Shown piece after piece: positions 1,728-8,188 of a stretch of DNA of 21,297 nucleotides (positions within the stretch are counted from its first letter, which is position 1; every line of letters starts with the position of its first letter). A model generated the notes under the pieces. It saw only the letters and a list, made by a program, of their open reading frames with translations, was not told where the DNA came from and did no database searches. The translations under genes were made by a program, and so were the position numbers. Source of the stretch: a virus; IMG/VR virus record IMGVR_UViG_3300036846_000453, positions 1-21,297 of that record, one strand, 5' to 3'.

Positions 1728-1995
1728 TTTTATTTAATCCCTTTCTCGAATTACCTTATAGAATCGTGTCCCAAGCTACAGTGTACCAAGCAGCATTCAC
1801 GATTGCAACACGTTTCTAAGCGATTGATCAGTAGGTGGTACTCCGCATCCTCTCGATGCCTTTTAATTGACTGGAGAGGTTAATTTAACGCTAAAGTGAC
1901 CCTCTCTCAGAGCACCTGAAACGAGTGTACGTCTACCTGGAAGCTGCATAGGTCAAGTTACAAAATGTACGCGCTGACATATCTATTTTACTAGT
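1728..1995. other. Structured gap in the leftward operon, possible leader or non-coding RNA
   Basis: About 268 bases without a gene between the helicase and the 69-aa gene, in a block where other genes overlap or nearly touch. Read on the minus strand it contains a GAGAGG...CCTCTC stem, a perfect 5-bp hairpin GCATC-GAGAG-GATGC (1845-1859), and distal GTAG/GTAC elements able to pair with GTAC/CTAC further on, enclosing these hairpins. No tRNA cloverleaf was found. The plus strand reads CTTTT after the 5-bp hairpin, which is too weak to call a terminator. A leader RNA, a small RNA or a processing region for the leftward transcript are the options; none is proven. Confidence 0.4.
1780..1808 (-). 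promoter_or_regulatory. Weak candidate sigma70-type promoter for the 69-aa gene
   Basis: On the minus strand TTGCAA (1808-1803), a 17-base spacer and TACACT (1785-1780) each match the consensus hexamers at four of six positions. It would start transcription about 45 bases before the 69-aa gene. The -35 overlaps ACGTGTTGCA, a word also seen near the main leftward and rightward promoters. The match is modest and may be chance. Confidence 0.3.
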
Positions 1996-3885
1996 CTAAG
2001 CCCGCCCTGCAACAGTTCTTTCCAACAAATCTTTAAGTGAATTAGTATCTTGTTCAAGATTCCAATTATTATAAACTGTTTCACCAACAGCTTGTCTCTT
2101 AGATTCGATTAACTCAAACATCCATTCATCAAACAAGCCTTTACAAATTACGTATTCAATGTTAGTTGGATTTTTCTTAATTGATAGATCAGGGTTGTAG
2201 AAACGGAACTCAAACTGTGATTCCATTTCAGAATTCCATTGTCTCTCTAAGATGAGTACGTTATCACAATAGTGGAAGTCCATACCAACGCCGCCTGCTA
2301 ACATATTTATAATCAGAAATTGTCTATTGCTGGTTTCCCAATTTCTCATAACCCAATCTTTACGATCAGGCCCATCCTCACCACTTAACTTAAAACAATT
2401 TTTCTCAGCACCTAATTGATGATACATTACATCCCGTACTGATTCATGGTGAATACCTATAGCCCATTTAGAAGCTGAGTCTAAAGCACAAGTCTCTAAA
2501 AAATCAGTAGCGTAGCTGACTTTCATCATTCCGCAAATCCGCCTTAACTTCATGAGGTGATCAGCTACATCCCAATAAGTAGGATTTACCTTTTCAGCAA
2601 GTTTAAGCTCGATCTGATCTAGGATGCTATTATATAGTTCTGTTAGCTTACCTTTATCAGGTTCGATCATAGTAAAGTTACGCTGTATTTTAGGAAGGTC
2701 TGTGAATACATCTTCTTTCTCTCTGCGTAACAAATACTTGCCAACTTCTTCTTTAAAGGCGGATAGCATATAAGGTTTAACACGAGACCATTTACCTTTG
2801 GAATCTTGTTCTAGCCAAGATCTACGAAACCTTTCAAGAGAGCTGAACCGTTCAGGGTTTACTAAATTAAGAGGTACAAAATACTCATCTGCGCGATTTA
2901 GTATTGGAGTGCCCGTAAGAAGTATCAAACCACAGGGTTTAGTGGAATCATCTTCTAGCTTTAGATTGTACTCTGCTTTGAGTTCCTCTATTTTAGTTAA
3001 AACACTAGCACGTTCATGTTCATTACTATTATTTACTGGATTCGCTAATTCAAGAAGTTTAGTAACACGTTCACGTACTTCAGGGTTTGACTGCCACTTA
3101 GCGTCGCGTTCGTCATGTTGTTGTTGCTGATAACAGTACTGCGTACACTTTGGGCACCGCGTAGACTTAGATACTGCTACATGACCTATACGTTTGTCAT
3201 ACTTTTGCTTACCGTGCTCAAACCATGTATGAAAACACCGGGTACATCTAAAGTCTAGTTGAGTGTTAGATTCCCCTGTGTTTAGGAAAGAGATAAAGTC
3301 CACTAAAGCTTGTGATCTGTTAGAGTCTGTATTCTTGAATGAATGAGCCTCATCAACTATAACTAGCTTGAAAGCTATCTTACGAAGTGCTGCTTGGATA
3401 GCAGGCCGTCCAAAGGTATCCATTGAAATTACATAAGCACTGAAACCAGGAGGTATCCATGCCTTAGATCCGATAATAGGGAATACACCATTAGGTAATA
3501 CGTCAGTCCAAGTCTTAAACTCGCGTATCCATTGCCATAAATTCGCGGGTTTAACAATAATCAAAGCCGGGGTACGTTCTTTGTACTTATTCTTTAAAGC
3601 AAGCAGGGCTTGAGGTGTTTTCCCAAGACGCATTTGATCCCCTATGATACAATTGAAGTCGTGTTCAATAATAAACTGAATACCATCCTCTTGATAGTGA
3701 CGGGCTTTCTTACCAGACAAGTCGGCAGAGGTAAAGTCCAAGTCATCTTTAGAGACACGAGTTATGTCTGCGGTAAAGAAGTGTCCGCATGTATACTCAT
3801 ACAGTTTAGTCGTATCAAGCGTATGTTCCTCTTTGAGTTTTAGTTGTTTTCCACAAATTGGACATACAGCAGTTAATTTTGGCAT
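1996..3885 (-). CDS. SNF2/SF2-type DNA helicase-translocase with inserted zinc finger
   Basis: A 629-aa superfamily 2 ATPase of the SNF2-like type. Motifs in order: N-terminal zinc-finger cysteines C8, C11 and C33; Walker A GDQMRLGKT at 82-90 (SNF2 proteins usually have MGLGKT); DEAH at 178-181; an insertion holding C214/C217 and C244/C247/C251, probably a second zinc finger; motif III TGTP at 324-327; motif V around AGGVGMD at 530-536; and a divergent motif VI near 557-561 (QFEFR in place of the usual Q..GR.HR). Family members use ATP to move on double-stranded DNA; phage versions are often linked to replication, recombination or replisome loading. It has its own near-consensus promoter at 3911-3939 and an AGGAG site 11 bases before the ATG. 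It probably works with the Cas4-like nuclease downstream. Confidence 0.88.
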   Translation of the reverse strand: MPKLTAVCPICGKQLKLKEEHTLDTTKLYEYTCGHFFTADITRVSKDDLDFTSADLSGKKARHYQEDGIQFIIEHDFNCIIGDQMRLGKTPQALLALKNKYKERTPALIIVKPANLWQWIREFKTWTDVLPNGVFPIIGSKAWIPPGFSAYVISMDTFGRPAIQAALRKIAFKLVIVDEAHSFKNTDSNRSQALVDFISFLNTGESNTQLDFRCTRCFHTWFEHGKQKYDKRIGHVAVSKSTRCPKCTQYCYQQQQHDERDAKWQSNPEVRERVTKLLELANPVNNSNEHERASVLTKIEELKAEYNLKLEDDSTKPCGLILLTGTPILNRADEYFVPLNLVNPERFSSLERFRRSWLEQDSKGKWSRVKPYMLSAFKEEVGKYLLRREKEDVFTDLPKIQRNFTMIEPDKGKLTELYNSILDQIELKLAEKVNPTYWDVADHLMKLRRICGMMKVSYATDFLETCALDSASKWAIGIHHESVRDVMYHQLGAEKNCFKLSGEDGPDRKDWVMRNWETSNRQFLIINMLAGGVGMDFHYCDNVLILERQWNSEMESQFEFRFYNPDLSIKKNPTNIEYVICKGLFDEWMFELIESKRQAVGETVYNNWNLEQDTNSLKDLLERTVAGRA

Positions 3886-3910
3886 TTAATGTAAGTCTCC
3901 TATTCTACTT

Positions 3911-3939
3911 ATTGTAACATTTCTGCGGAACAGTGTCAA
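3911..3939 (-). promoter_or_regulatory. Strong sigma70-type promoter of the helicase gene
   Basis: Reading the minus strand: TTGACA (3939-3934), a 17-base spacer, TACAAT (3916-3911). The -35 is perfect and the -10 differs from TATAAT by one base. The predicted start near 3904 gives a leader of about 19 bases before the helicase ATG at 3885, with AGGAG in it. It lies in the only sizeable gap between the helicase and the 97-aa gene. Confidence 0.85.
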
Positions 3940-3961
3940 TAGATCTAAAGTCCTGGGCGTA

Positions 3962-4255
3962 CTAGTACTTACCATACTTGATTGTTCTTTCAATTGCAGT
4001 TAGATTAGTTATATCGTGTTCATTTTTAATCATGTCTAAAACTTTAAGTCTAGTATCAATATCTAAATAGCGTGAATCAGATTCAATTTTACCTTTTAAT
4101 TCATTTTCTCTGTAACGTAATTCATCTTGATAAGAGCTTGTATGTGATGGCGAAGTCACCCAACCATAGATACCAATACAAATTGGTAATACCACACCAT
4201 ATATAAGTGTACATGTACAAACAGCTAACCATGTGTATCCAATTATCTTTTTCAT
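3962..4255 (-). CDS. Small membrane-anchored protein, 97 aa
   Basis: The N-terminus MKKIIGYTWLAVCTC begins one hydrophobic span (about residues 5-33), which could be a signal anchor or an uncleaved transmembrane helix. The remaining 60 residues are charged and helical. The gene starts three bases after the stop of the 59-aa gene (TAG-ACC-ATG), so it belongs to the leftward operon. No conserved motif is recognised. A membrane-bound early protein, for instance one affecting host envelope or superinfection, is possible but only inferred from topology and position. Confidence 0.65.
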   Translation of the reverse strand: MKKIIGYTWLAVCTCTLIYGVVLPICIGIYGWVTSPSHTSSYQDELRYRENELKGKIESDSRYLDIDTRLKVLDMIKNEHDITNLTAIERTIKYGKY

Positions 4256-6807: not shown

Positions 6808-6840
6808 ATAATTAATTCTCCAAAAGACTTTGGATTTTGA

Positions 6841-6860
6841 AGTACTAGTACTAGTAGTAC
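6841..6860. repeat. GTACT palindromic repeat in the leftward leader
   Basis: AGTACTAGTACT (6841-6852) is a perfect 12-base palindrome and is followed by AGTAGTAC. It lies between the predicted leftward transcription start (near 6903) and the first gene (6807), where a repressor could act on the leader. Three more GTACT units occur right after the 68-aa gene at 9116-9135. Confidence 0.5.
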
Positions 6861-6909
6861 CTTAGCTGTAGCGGTCGATTCAGCCAGTCGATGAAATGAC
6901 TGCAACACG

Positions 6910-6937
6910 ATTATAGCACGTTTTGAGCAGGTGTCAA
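6910..6937 (-). promoter_or_regulatory. Main leftward (early) promoter
   Basis: On the minus strand TTGACA (6937-6932), a 16-base spacer and TATAAT (6915-6910): both hexamers are perfect. The predicted start is near 6903, upstream of the whole leftward gene block. Spacer and downstream bases (CCTGCTC, ACGTG, CTATA, GTTGCAG) recur in a rightward promoter-like site at 7287-7326. Confidence 0.85.
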
Positions 6938-7028
6938 ATCTTTAGTCGCTTTAGAATCAATGGCTTACCAGTATGAGCTAGTGTGTCGAAAGCTACCTGG
7001 GGTCATAGTTGGCTAAGTACCAATAGAA

Positions 7029-7067
7029 TCAACAACTTAGCTCTTACCTTTGTTTTCAACAACTTAG
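7029..7067. repeat. Direct repeats TCAACAACTTAG
   Basis: Two identical 12-base copies at 7029-7040 and 7056-7067, 27 bases apart. A further ACTTAGCT follows at 7081-7088. They could be iteron-like binding sites for a replication or regulatory protein. Confidence 0.5.
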
Positions 7068-7080
7068 TAATAAACAAAGG
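7047..7080. repeat. Inverted repeat CCTTTGTTT / AAACAAAGG
   Basis: A perfect nine-base inverted repeat (7047-7055 and 7072-7080) around a 16-base loop that contains the second TCAACAACTTAG repeat. It may form a hairpin or serve as a two-fold binding site. No T-run follows on the plus strand, so it is not a terminator. Confidence 0.55.
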
Positions 7081-7145
7081 ACTTAGCTAGCTTGCATCTA
7101 AGAATCATTTTCATATACCTAAATTCCAAGGGTGATTGTTTGTAT

Positions 7146-7187
7146 GTTGTTGATAATAATATATATATATAAAATAAGAGAAACAAC
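7146..7187. other. AT-rich tract, possible DNA unwinding element
   Basis: GTTGTT at 7146-7151 and AACAAC at 7182-7187 are inverted repeats enclosing about 30 bases made almost only of A and T, including an alternating (AT) run. Its position beside the repeats above suggests the melting element of an origin, or simply a flexible promoter-upstream tract. Confidence 0.45.
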
Positions 7188-7270
7188 TACTGGCCACCAA
7201 CCCTAGGTGGGAATCGACTAGTCCATGATTTCTGGCCAATCATTGAAAATAAAGGACGAAAGCCTCTAAA

Positions 7271-7310
7271 ACGTGTCGTAAACGTGTTGAAAGCCTGCTC
7301 TTGCACGTGT
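7271..7310 (+). repeat. Three ACGTGT words near a rightward promoter
   Basis: ACGTGT occurs at 7271-7276, 7282-7287 and 7305-7310, with start-to-start distances of 11 and 23 bases, close to one and two helical turns. The second touches the -35 and the third lies between the -35 and the -10 of the candidate promoter 7287-7317. Related ACGTG occurs inside the leftward promoter. An activator or repressor site is plausible. Confidence 0.4.
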
Positions 7311-7317
7311 CTATACA
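7287..7317 (+). promoter_or_regulatory. Candidate rightward promoter related to the leftward promoter
   Basis: TTGAAA (7287-7292) followed after 19 bases by TATACA (7312-7317). The hexamers are imperfect and the spacing long. The stretch nevertheless shares CCTGCTC, ACGTG, CTATA and GTTGCAG, in the same order and with similar spacing, with the perfect leftward promoter. It may be a regulated or decayed relative. Confidence 0.4.
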
Positions 7318-7407
7318 TGTTGCAGACTGTTCGATTTGGAAACAATTGTCATGGGTCGAAGCTTGTTACATATTTATTGTTGGAACTAAAAAAGGTCTAA
7401 AAAACTG

Positions 7408-7436
7408 TTGACACCGAATCGAAAAGACTCTATGCT
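7408..7436 (+). promoter_or_regulatory. Rightward promoter 1
   Basis: TTGACA (7408-7413), a 17-base spacer and TATGCT (7431-7436). The -35 is perfect; the -10 has four of six matches with correct spacing. It would transcribe the rightward genes from about 7443. Confidence 0.7.
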
Positions 7437-7511
7437 TGATGAGTACTTGAGATTGAGATGAGGAGATGAGAAACGAAGCGAAAACGAGTTGAAAAAATGT
7501 TTAAAGAGGTA

Positions 7512-7540
7512 TTGACATGGTAAGCACAAGGTGCTATAGT
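7512..7540 (+). promoter_or_regulatory. Rightward promoter 2 (strong)
   Basis: TTGACA (7512-7517), a 17-base spacer and TATAGT (7535-7540), one mismatch to the two consensus hexamers. Transcription would start near 7547. The promoter covers the ATG at 7517, so that codon is not the start of the following gene on this transcript. Confidence 0.8.
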
Positions 7541-7663
7541 GTATTAGAGGGTAGAGAGCAGATGGCGACACAAACTAGCGGTCTGACATATGGACAGTCT
7601 CAAGACGTCCAATCGATTTTAGCATCACCCAGAAAGACCCGAAAGGGAAAAGGAAGAACCAAA

Positions 7664-8188
7664 ATGGCAAACGAAGAGACGAACGTGAACACTGAAGGAA
7701 CCGATCAAGAGGCAAGTGCTGAATCGGTTGCAGTCGATAACGTAAAGCGTATTCAGAAAACAGTATTTGATCTGGGTACATTTAAGAATGTTACCTTGTA
7801 CAAAGACGTGGAGCAGCCTAAGAAGCCAGCCGATCTTAAAGAAGCACAACAAATGGTTGGTGGCTCAACGGAAGCTTTGCTTAACCTTATCTATACGGGC
7901 CTAGTTGCAAAGACTAATGAGGACGCGCAAAAGGTTATCGATGGATTCCACTATTGCACTGCGGACTATCCTTTAGATCCTAACAAACGTCCGGCGCTTG
8001 AAGGAGAATATACCGGAAACTACGCTGAAGGTGAAAAGAAGGCAATGATCAACGCGGCTGTACTTAGCATGGCTAAGATGATGGGTTATGCTTCTGGTAA
8101 CTCCGCGGAGGTAAATGATAAGTACCGCGAACAAGCTATGGAGATTATCAGGGCTAACCCGGTTATGCTTAAGTCGTTGCAGGGTTAA
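7664..8188 (+). CDS. Hypothetical protein, first rightward gene, 174 aa
   Basis: I place the start at ATG 7664, where GGAAG lies seven bases upstream (AAAAGGAAG before the ATG). Earlier in-frame ATGs at 7517 and 7562 fall inside, or about 15 bases from, the promoter start and lack a clear Shine-Dalgarno site; the 7562 start remains possible for longer transcripts. The N-terminus is acidic and low in complexity (MANEETNVNTEGTDQEASAE). A folded part follows: VFDLGTFKNVTLYKDVEQP, then helices to the end. No family recognised. Placed behind two strong promoters and ending in a strong terminator, it is probably an abundant protein. Confidence 0.7.
   Translation: MANEETNVNTEGTDQEASAESVAVDNVKRIQKTVFDLGTFKNVTLYKDVEQPKKPADLKEAQQMVGGSTEALLNLIYTGLVAKTNEDAQKVIDGFHYCTADYPLDPNKRPALEGEYTGNYAEGEKKAMINAAVLSMAKMMGYASGNSAEVNDKYREQAMEIIRANPVMLKSLQG

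Follow-up and report, generated by a model that had tools for sequence, protein, structure and literature searches.

Genomic Setting of the Divergent Region

The window, a 21,297-base IMG/VR virus record that covers about half of a phage genome, contains two arms of opposite polarity. The left arm, in which an SNF2-type helicase and a PD-(D/E)XK exonuclease are encoded, is transcribed leftward; the right arm is transcribed rightward, toward the terminase, portal and capsid genes. Between the arms lies a 755-bp intergenic region (6808-7562) that holds two look-alike stretches and is best explained as controlling divergent transcription in a tailed phage. The left operon is an early/replication operon, with the helicase and exonuclease genes in the window and DNA polymerase and primase genes in G002, a 42,065-bp record that includes the relative L009. 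The closest relative is L003, whose protein adjoining the region is 89% identical to that of the window. Among 50,697 phage records none is closely related to the group: the terminase is at most 29% identical to any match, and the gene beside the region has no match. No prophages that would name the host were found in GTDB genomes, and searches for known RNA families and tRNAs returned none.

The Leftward Promoter and Its Upstream Element

The leftward early promoter, PL (6910-6937, minus strand), reads TTGACA-16-TATAAT, matching the sigma-70 pattern (TTGACA, 16-18 bp, TATAAT) at 12/12 positions and carrying a TG (TGC) extended -10; a promoter scan recovered exactly the perfect promoter that the first-pass annotation had placed at 6937-6910. 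The surrounding segment, 6897-6952, forms an isolated conserved island that is 81% identical to L003 991-1047, and PL itself aligns across 11 phage records and is kept in the wider phage clade.

A conserved upstream element, GGTAAGCCATTGATTCTAAAGCGACTAAAGAT (6938-6969, minus strand), abuts the PL -35 box. In the 11-record alignment (A3), the common block is GnTAAnCC...TGATTCTAAAGCGAATAAAG, immediately upstream of TTGACA. The GATTCTAAAGCGAATAAAG element accompanies the leftward promoter in a clade wider than that of the phages that carry the repeats described below, and is also seen at the early -35 in L004, L009, L024, L033, L037, L038, L041, L051, L056, L079 and L091, L079 and L091 being two further cases. 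The phages that share it have highly diverged proteins, and L056, in the part retrieved, has no genes homologous to the window or G002; conservation in spite of this divergence suggests that GATTCTAAAGCGAATAAAG is an activator site, either of the host or shared widely. As a host signal the upstream element was rejected after a search of 85,000 bacterial genomes gave one match (Mastigocoleus), which lacks the flanking conserved bases. A conserved plus-strand RNA beside PL was likewise discarded, the alignment decaying beyond the upstream element.

In L024 (3471), L033 (3146) and L041 (4460), all on the minus strand, the first leftward gene begins about 5 nt past the promoter -10 (TACACT, then CAGTC or CGGTC, then ATG), and because the start codon lies so close, the first leftward message in these phages looks leaderless. 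Terminator-like hairpins with T-runs also occur in several relatives, at a distance of about 70-110 bp to the right of the early promoter element (L024 ~3920-3950, L033 ~3232-3262, L038 ~4195-4215), and these sites may yield a short plus-strand transcript.

Three Arrays of an 11-bp Direct Repeat

According to the first-pass annotation, the words TTGA, CCTGCTC, ACGTG, CTATA and GTTGCAG of the leftward promoter recur, with their order kept, on the plus strand at 7287-7326, a match judged unlikely by chance; the gaps between them there are 1-2 nt. Alignment against shuffled sequence bears this out. When the 42-nt PL segment is aligned to the rest of the intergenic region with gap-tolerant scoring, the score of 17 is reached in none of 1000 dinucleotide shuffles (maximum 15); with stringent scoring, the score of 25 is reached in 2/1000. 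All-against-all alignment of a 709-bp region gives a gap-tolerant score of 20 (0/200 shuffles, maximum 19) and is not significant under stringent scoring (27/200). Since gap-tolerant scores beat the shuffles and stringent scores do so less clearly, the similarity is real but gapped. It starts at 7272, to the left of the 7287 proposed earlier, and is explained by a tandem unit of about 11 bp, present three times on the left and five times on the right: two arrays account for the likeness better than two promoters.

The unit has the approximate consensus CGTGYTnnAAW and is repeated head-to-tail, the tandem repeats beginning with CNTG; part of it (TGnTATAAT) also resembles an extended -10 box. 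The left array, OL (6899-6931, minus strand), is composed of CCTGCTCAAAA (6931-6921), CGTGCTATAAT (6920-6910) and CGTGTTGCAGT (6909-6899), and fills PL from right behind the -35 box to about +5, the -10 box falling within unit 2. OL is the best three-unit cluster in the window, with a score of 34.2 at what is a training site of the matrix. The right array, OR (7272-7326, plus strand), comprises CGTGTCGTAAA, CGTGTTGAAAG, CCTGCTCTTGCA, CGTGTCTATA and CATGTTGCAGA, which start at 7272, 7283, 7294, 7306 and 7316, at spacings of 11, 11, 12 and 10 bp. OL and OR are about 340 bp apart and in opposed orientation. A third array, Oexo (1780-1812, minus strand), lies between the helicase and exonuclease genes, consists of CGTGTTGCAAT, CGTGAATGCTG and CTTGGTACACT, and carries a weak promoter, TTGCAA-17-TACACT. 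Within each array the units share one orientation and are spaced by about one helical turn (10-12 bp, mode 11), and two of the arrays overlap promoter sequences, OL on the PL core and Oexo with its weak promoter. Three phages carry the arrays: the window, L003 and L009/G002. Equivalents of OL are present in both relatives, and those of OR lie at ~1450-1482 in L003 and at 4380-4436 in L009.

A tandem CGTG pair is expected about 0.001 times per intergenic region; the pair AWCGTG-N5-AWCGTG, at exactly 11 bp, occurs twice in the 755-bp region (none in 2000 shuffles), and such pairs occur three times in the whole window (none in 200). A matrix trained on the left arrays of the window, L003 and L009 only, and then applied to their right halves, found its best three-unit arrays on the plus strand and in the equivalent place in all three phages, with scores of 19.0, 15.4 and 23.8, respectively, each reached in 0/200 shuffles; column-permuted matrices reached all three scores in 0/2000 trials. 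The five-unit score of OR, which had no part in the training, is 24.1 (0/200 shuffles). Of the fixed spacings from 6 to 17 bp, only 11 bp stands out, with a summed score of 48 vs at most 21 for the others. The top three clusters in all 42,065 bp of G002 fall at the leftward promoter, at the right array and ahead of the exonuclease gene, and the three best clusters in the window occupy these same three places. The only WCGTGN6WCGTG pair in the 42 kb of G002 also precedes the exonuclease gene, at the equivalent of Oexo.

The left-array matrix gave no signal in L037, L024 or L004, and the arrays were rejected as a clade-wide feature: they are missing from L004, L024, L037, L041 and most of the helicase-bearing relatives. 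Judged by the records aligned, the leftward promoter is an old feature and the arrays are a narrower one, restricted to the window's subgroup. In L084, a more distant helicase-bearing relative, an array-like match to the 11-bp unit (score 22.0) is seen at ~7371-7392 on the minus strand.

Candidate Rightward Promoters

Two sites downstream of OR are, by their sequence, better rightward promoter candidates than 7287-7326. PR1 (7408-7436, plus strand) reads TTGACA-17-TATGCT, with TTGACA at 1583 in L003. PR2 (7512-7540, plus strand) reads TTGACA-17-TATAGT with a TG extension and has its L003 equivalent at 1680; TTGACATGGT at PR2 is common to the window, L003 and L041. Both lie in a segment, 7398-8188, with 81% identity to L003. 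PR2 contains the ATG at 7517, which is why the rightward gene probably starts at the ATG at 7563. From OR to the first good rightward promoter downstream is 82 bp, and OR overlaps no strong promoter.

AT-Rich Tract, Palindrome and Other Repeats

An AT-rich tract, TATATATA (7158-7180), lies between OL and OR and is found at the same place in L003, L004, L024, L033, L037, L038, L041 and L009. The tract is a possible unwinding element, and its conservation next to repeats makes an origin-like character of the region plausible; of the features of an iteron-type origin, repeats and an AT-rich tract are present here and no initiator was found. Elements of the TAGAATCAAnnnCTTA type are repeated in either orientation at 6952-6967, 7024-7039 and 7097-7106, and also in the intergenic regions of L004, L009 and L056; they could be iterons.

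The palindrome GTACTAGTAC (6842-6851), located in the stretch presumed to be the leader of the leftward message, occurs once or twice each in 6/9 records, in which a reversed control pattern occurs 0 times. A second copy in the window (3959-3968) lies just upstream of the helicase gene, and the palindrome is also seen in G001, G002, G003, G004 and G005. It may represent a second operator.

A Direct-Repeat Operator Model and Its Alternatives

The analysis establishes the repeats and their period, orientation and positions, as well as their conservation in two relatives. We infer from this that the arrays are probably direct-repeat operators for one putative DNA-binding protein, which would repress the early promoter and coordinate three transcription units. 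The protein would bind all three arrays, most likely cooperatively as a row of subunits, with all units facing approximately the same side of the helix. Since OL reaches from the downstream edge of the -35 box to about +5, bound protein should block the early promoter: occupancy of OL would exclude RNA polymerase from PL, and the leftward replication operon would be switched off or tuned. Through OR and Oexo, this protein would also govern the rightward and exonuclease units and link them with the leftward unit, and OL and OR could pair by looping across the ~340 bp that separate them. Several points count against this model: no candidate regulator emerged, OR overlaps no strong promoter, part of the unit can be read as an extended -10 box, and the conservation covers three phages. 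More distant relatives also keep the leftward promoter without the arrays, so that array function is not essential to the clade.

OR, with its five tandem units, is separated by about 95 bp from an AT-rich tract that all intergenic regions read contain, and the region lies between divergent arms of which the left carries the replication genes. This arrangement would suit a replication origin, in which OR and the adjoining tract are bound by an initiator, the units are iterons, and OL and Oexo serve initiator autoregulation. This reading is unlikely: most relatives retain the AT-rich tract but lack the arrays, the array at the exonuclease gene has no origin nearby, the unit is shorter than iterons usually are, and no initiator gene was found, including among the 38 G002 proteins. 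The first-pass annotation saw instead divergent, co-regulated or duplicated promoters; on this reading, the plus-strand stretch would be an inverted duplicate of PL that fires rightward from ~7325. The alignment does cover the -35 through the start region, and both the window (TTGAAA-19-TATACA) and L009 (TTGGAA-19-TACGAT) bear a weak resemblance to a promoter there. Even so, a true second promoter is quite improbable: the window site has a 19-bp spacer and poor hexamers and is missing from the promoter scan, so that no sigma-70 promoter is recognized at 7287-7326 (plus strand), and L003, despite its 89% identical adjoining protein, keeps the repeats at the right site without promoter-like hexamers. 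A search of relatives for the paired motif found a second PL copy to be weak in eight other records (9/300 shuffles in L003, 26-29/300 in L033 and L041, not significant in the others), and duplication of the entire leftward promoter was rejected as a clade feature. Of the earlier proposal, co-regulation is what survives: the same repeat stands on both sides, L003 and L009/G002 show the same opposed orientations, and the exonuclease gene has a third array in front of it.

The units might also be mere extended -10 boxes, TGnTATAAT-like, of clustered promoters that need no dedicated protein; the -10 does fall in the same unit register at OL and at the exonuclease sites. That is very improbable, as most OR units (CGTAAA, TGAAAG, TGCAGA) bear no likeness to a -10 box and a promoter requires neither a CG step nor an 11-bp period across three to five units. 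Chance similarity of promoter-like, compositionally biased DNA would fit the nonsignificant stringent all-against-all alignment taken by itself, but is hardly credible given the gap-tolerant scores, the independent matrix prediction and the conserved positions in two relatives.

No regulator is known for this phage group. No known DNA-binding regulator was found among the 38 G002 proteins or near the region, the structure predicted for the product of the first rightward gene had no fold match (mean pLDDT 61), and that of the first leftward gene product (pLDDT 44) was too poor for a fold search. In L041, a small ribbon-helix-helix-like protein is encoded beside the leftward promoter (3756-3947, minus strand), with a weak RHH_1/NikA-like match below cut-off. 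The arrays provide a testable handle on the timing of early, exonuclease and rightward expression in such phages, and supply short DNA baits for isolating the putative binding protein.

Comparison with Known Direct-Repeat Operators

By comparison, the arrays appear akin to 11-bp direct-repeat operators; because no cognate protein was found, no membership in the SARP, PHO, BldC or CII systems is claimed. PimR, a SARP regulator, binds three 11-bp units in the space between two divergently oriented genes, none of them at a -35 (PMC3367932), and the Streptomyces coelicolor PHO box consists of 11-bp direct repeats (PMC9019756). Like the phage arrays, SARP and OmpR/PhoB operators (a heptamer plus a 4-bp spacer) are built of head-to-tail 11-bp units on one helix face in at least two copies. 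The unit sequences differ, however (CGTGYTnnAAW in the phage vs CGGCAAG or GTTCACC in SARP/PHO sites), and, unlike these systems, the phage has three separate arrays, one across a whole core promoter. No winged-helix OmpR/PhoB or SARP regulator was found among the 38 proteins of G002, the window being half a genome. BldC, of a MerR-like family, forms cooperative head-to-tail multimers on direct repeats whose number varies (PMC5859096). The likeness lies in the head-to-tail direct repeats and variable copy number, but BldC units are 9 bp (AATTnnnnC) vs ~11 bp in the phage, in which no BldC homologue was detected.

At lambda OL/OR and in phage Mu, repeated operators are located at divergent promoters and one protein controls both arms. 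The phage region would share repeated operators in a divergent promoter region; the lambda operator sites are palindromic, in contrast to the direct repeats here, and no repressor or integrase gene was identified in the phage. At the lambda CII site, an activator binds two TTGC repeats, one on either side of the -35 of an early promoter; like the phage units, these are short direct repeats spaced by roughly one turn of the helix. That they straddle the -35 is cited in PMC3335776. CII repeats flank the -35, whereas the three to five units of the phage arrays cover the -10 and start region, an arrangement that suggests repression, unlike activation by CII.
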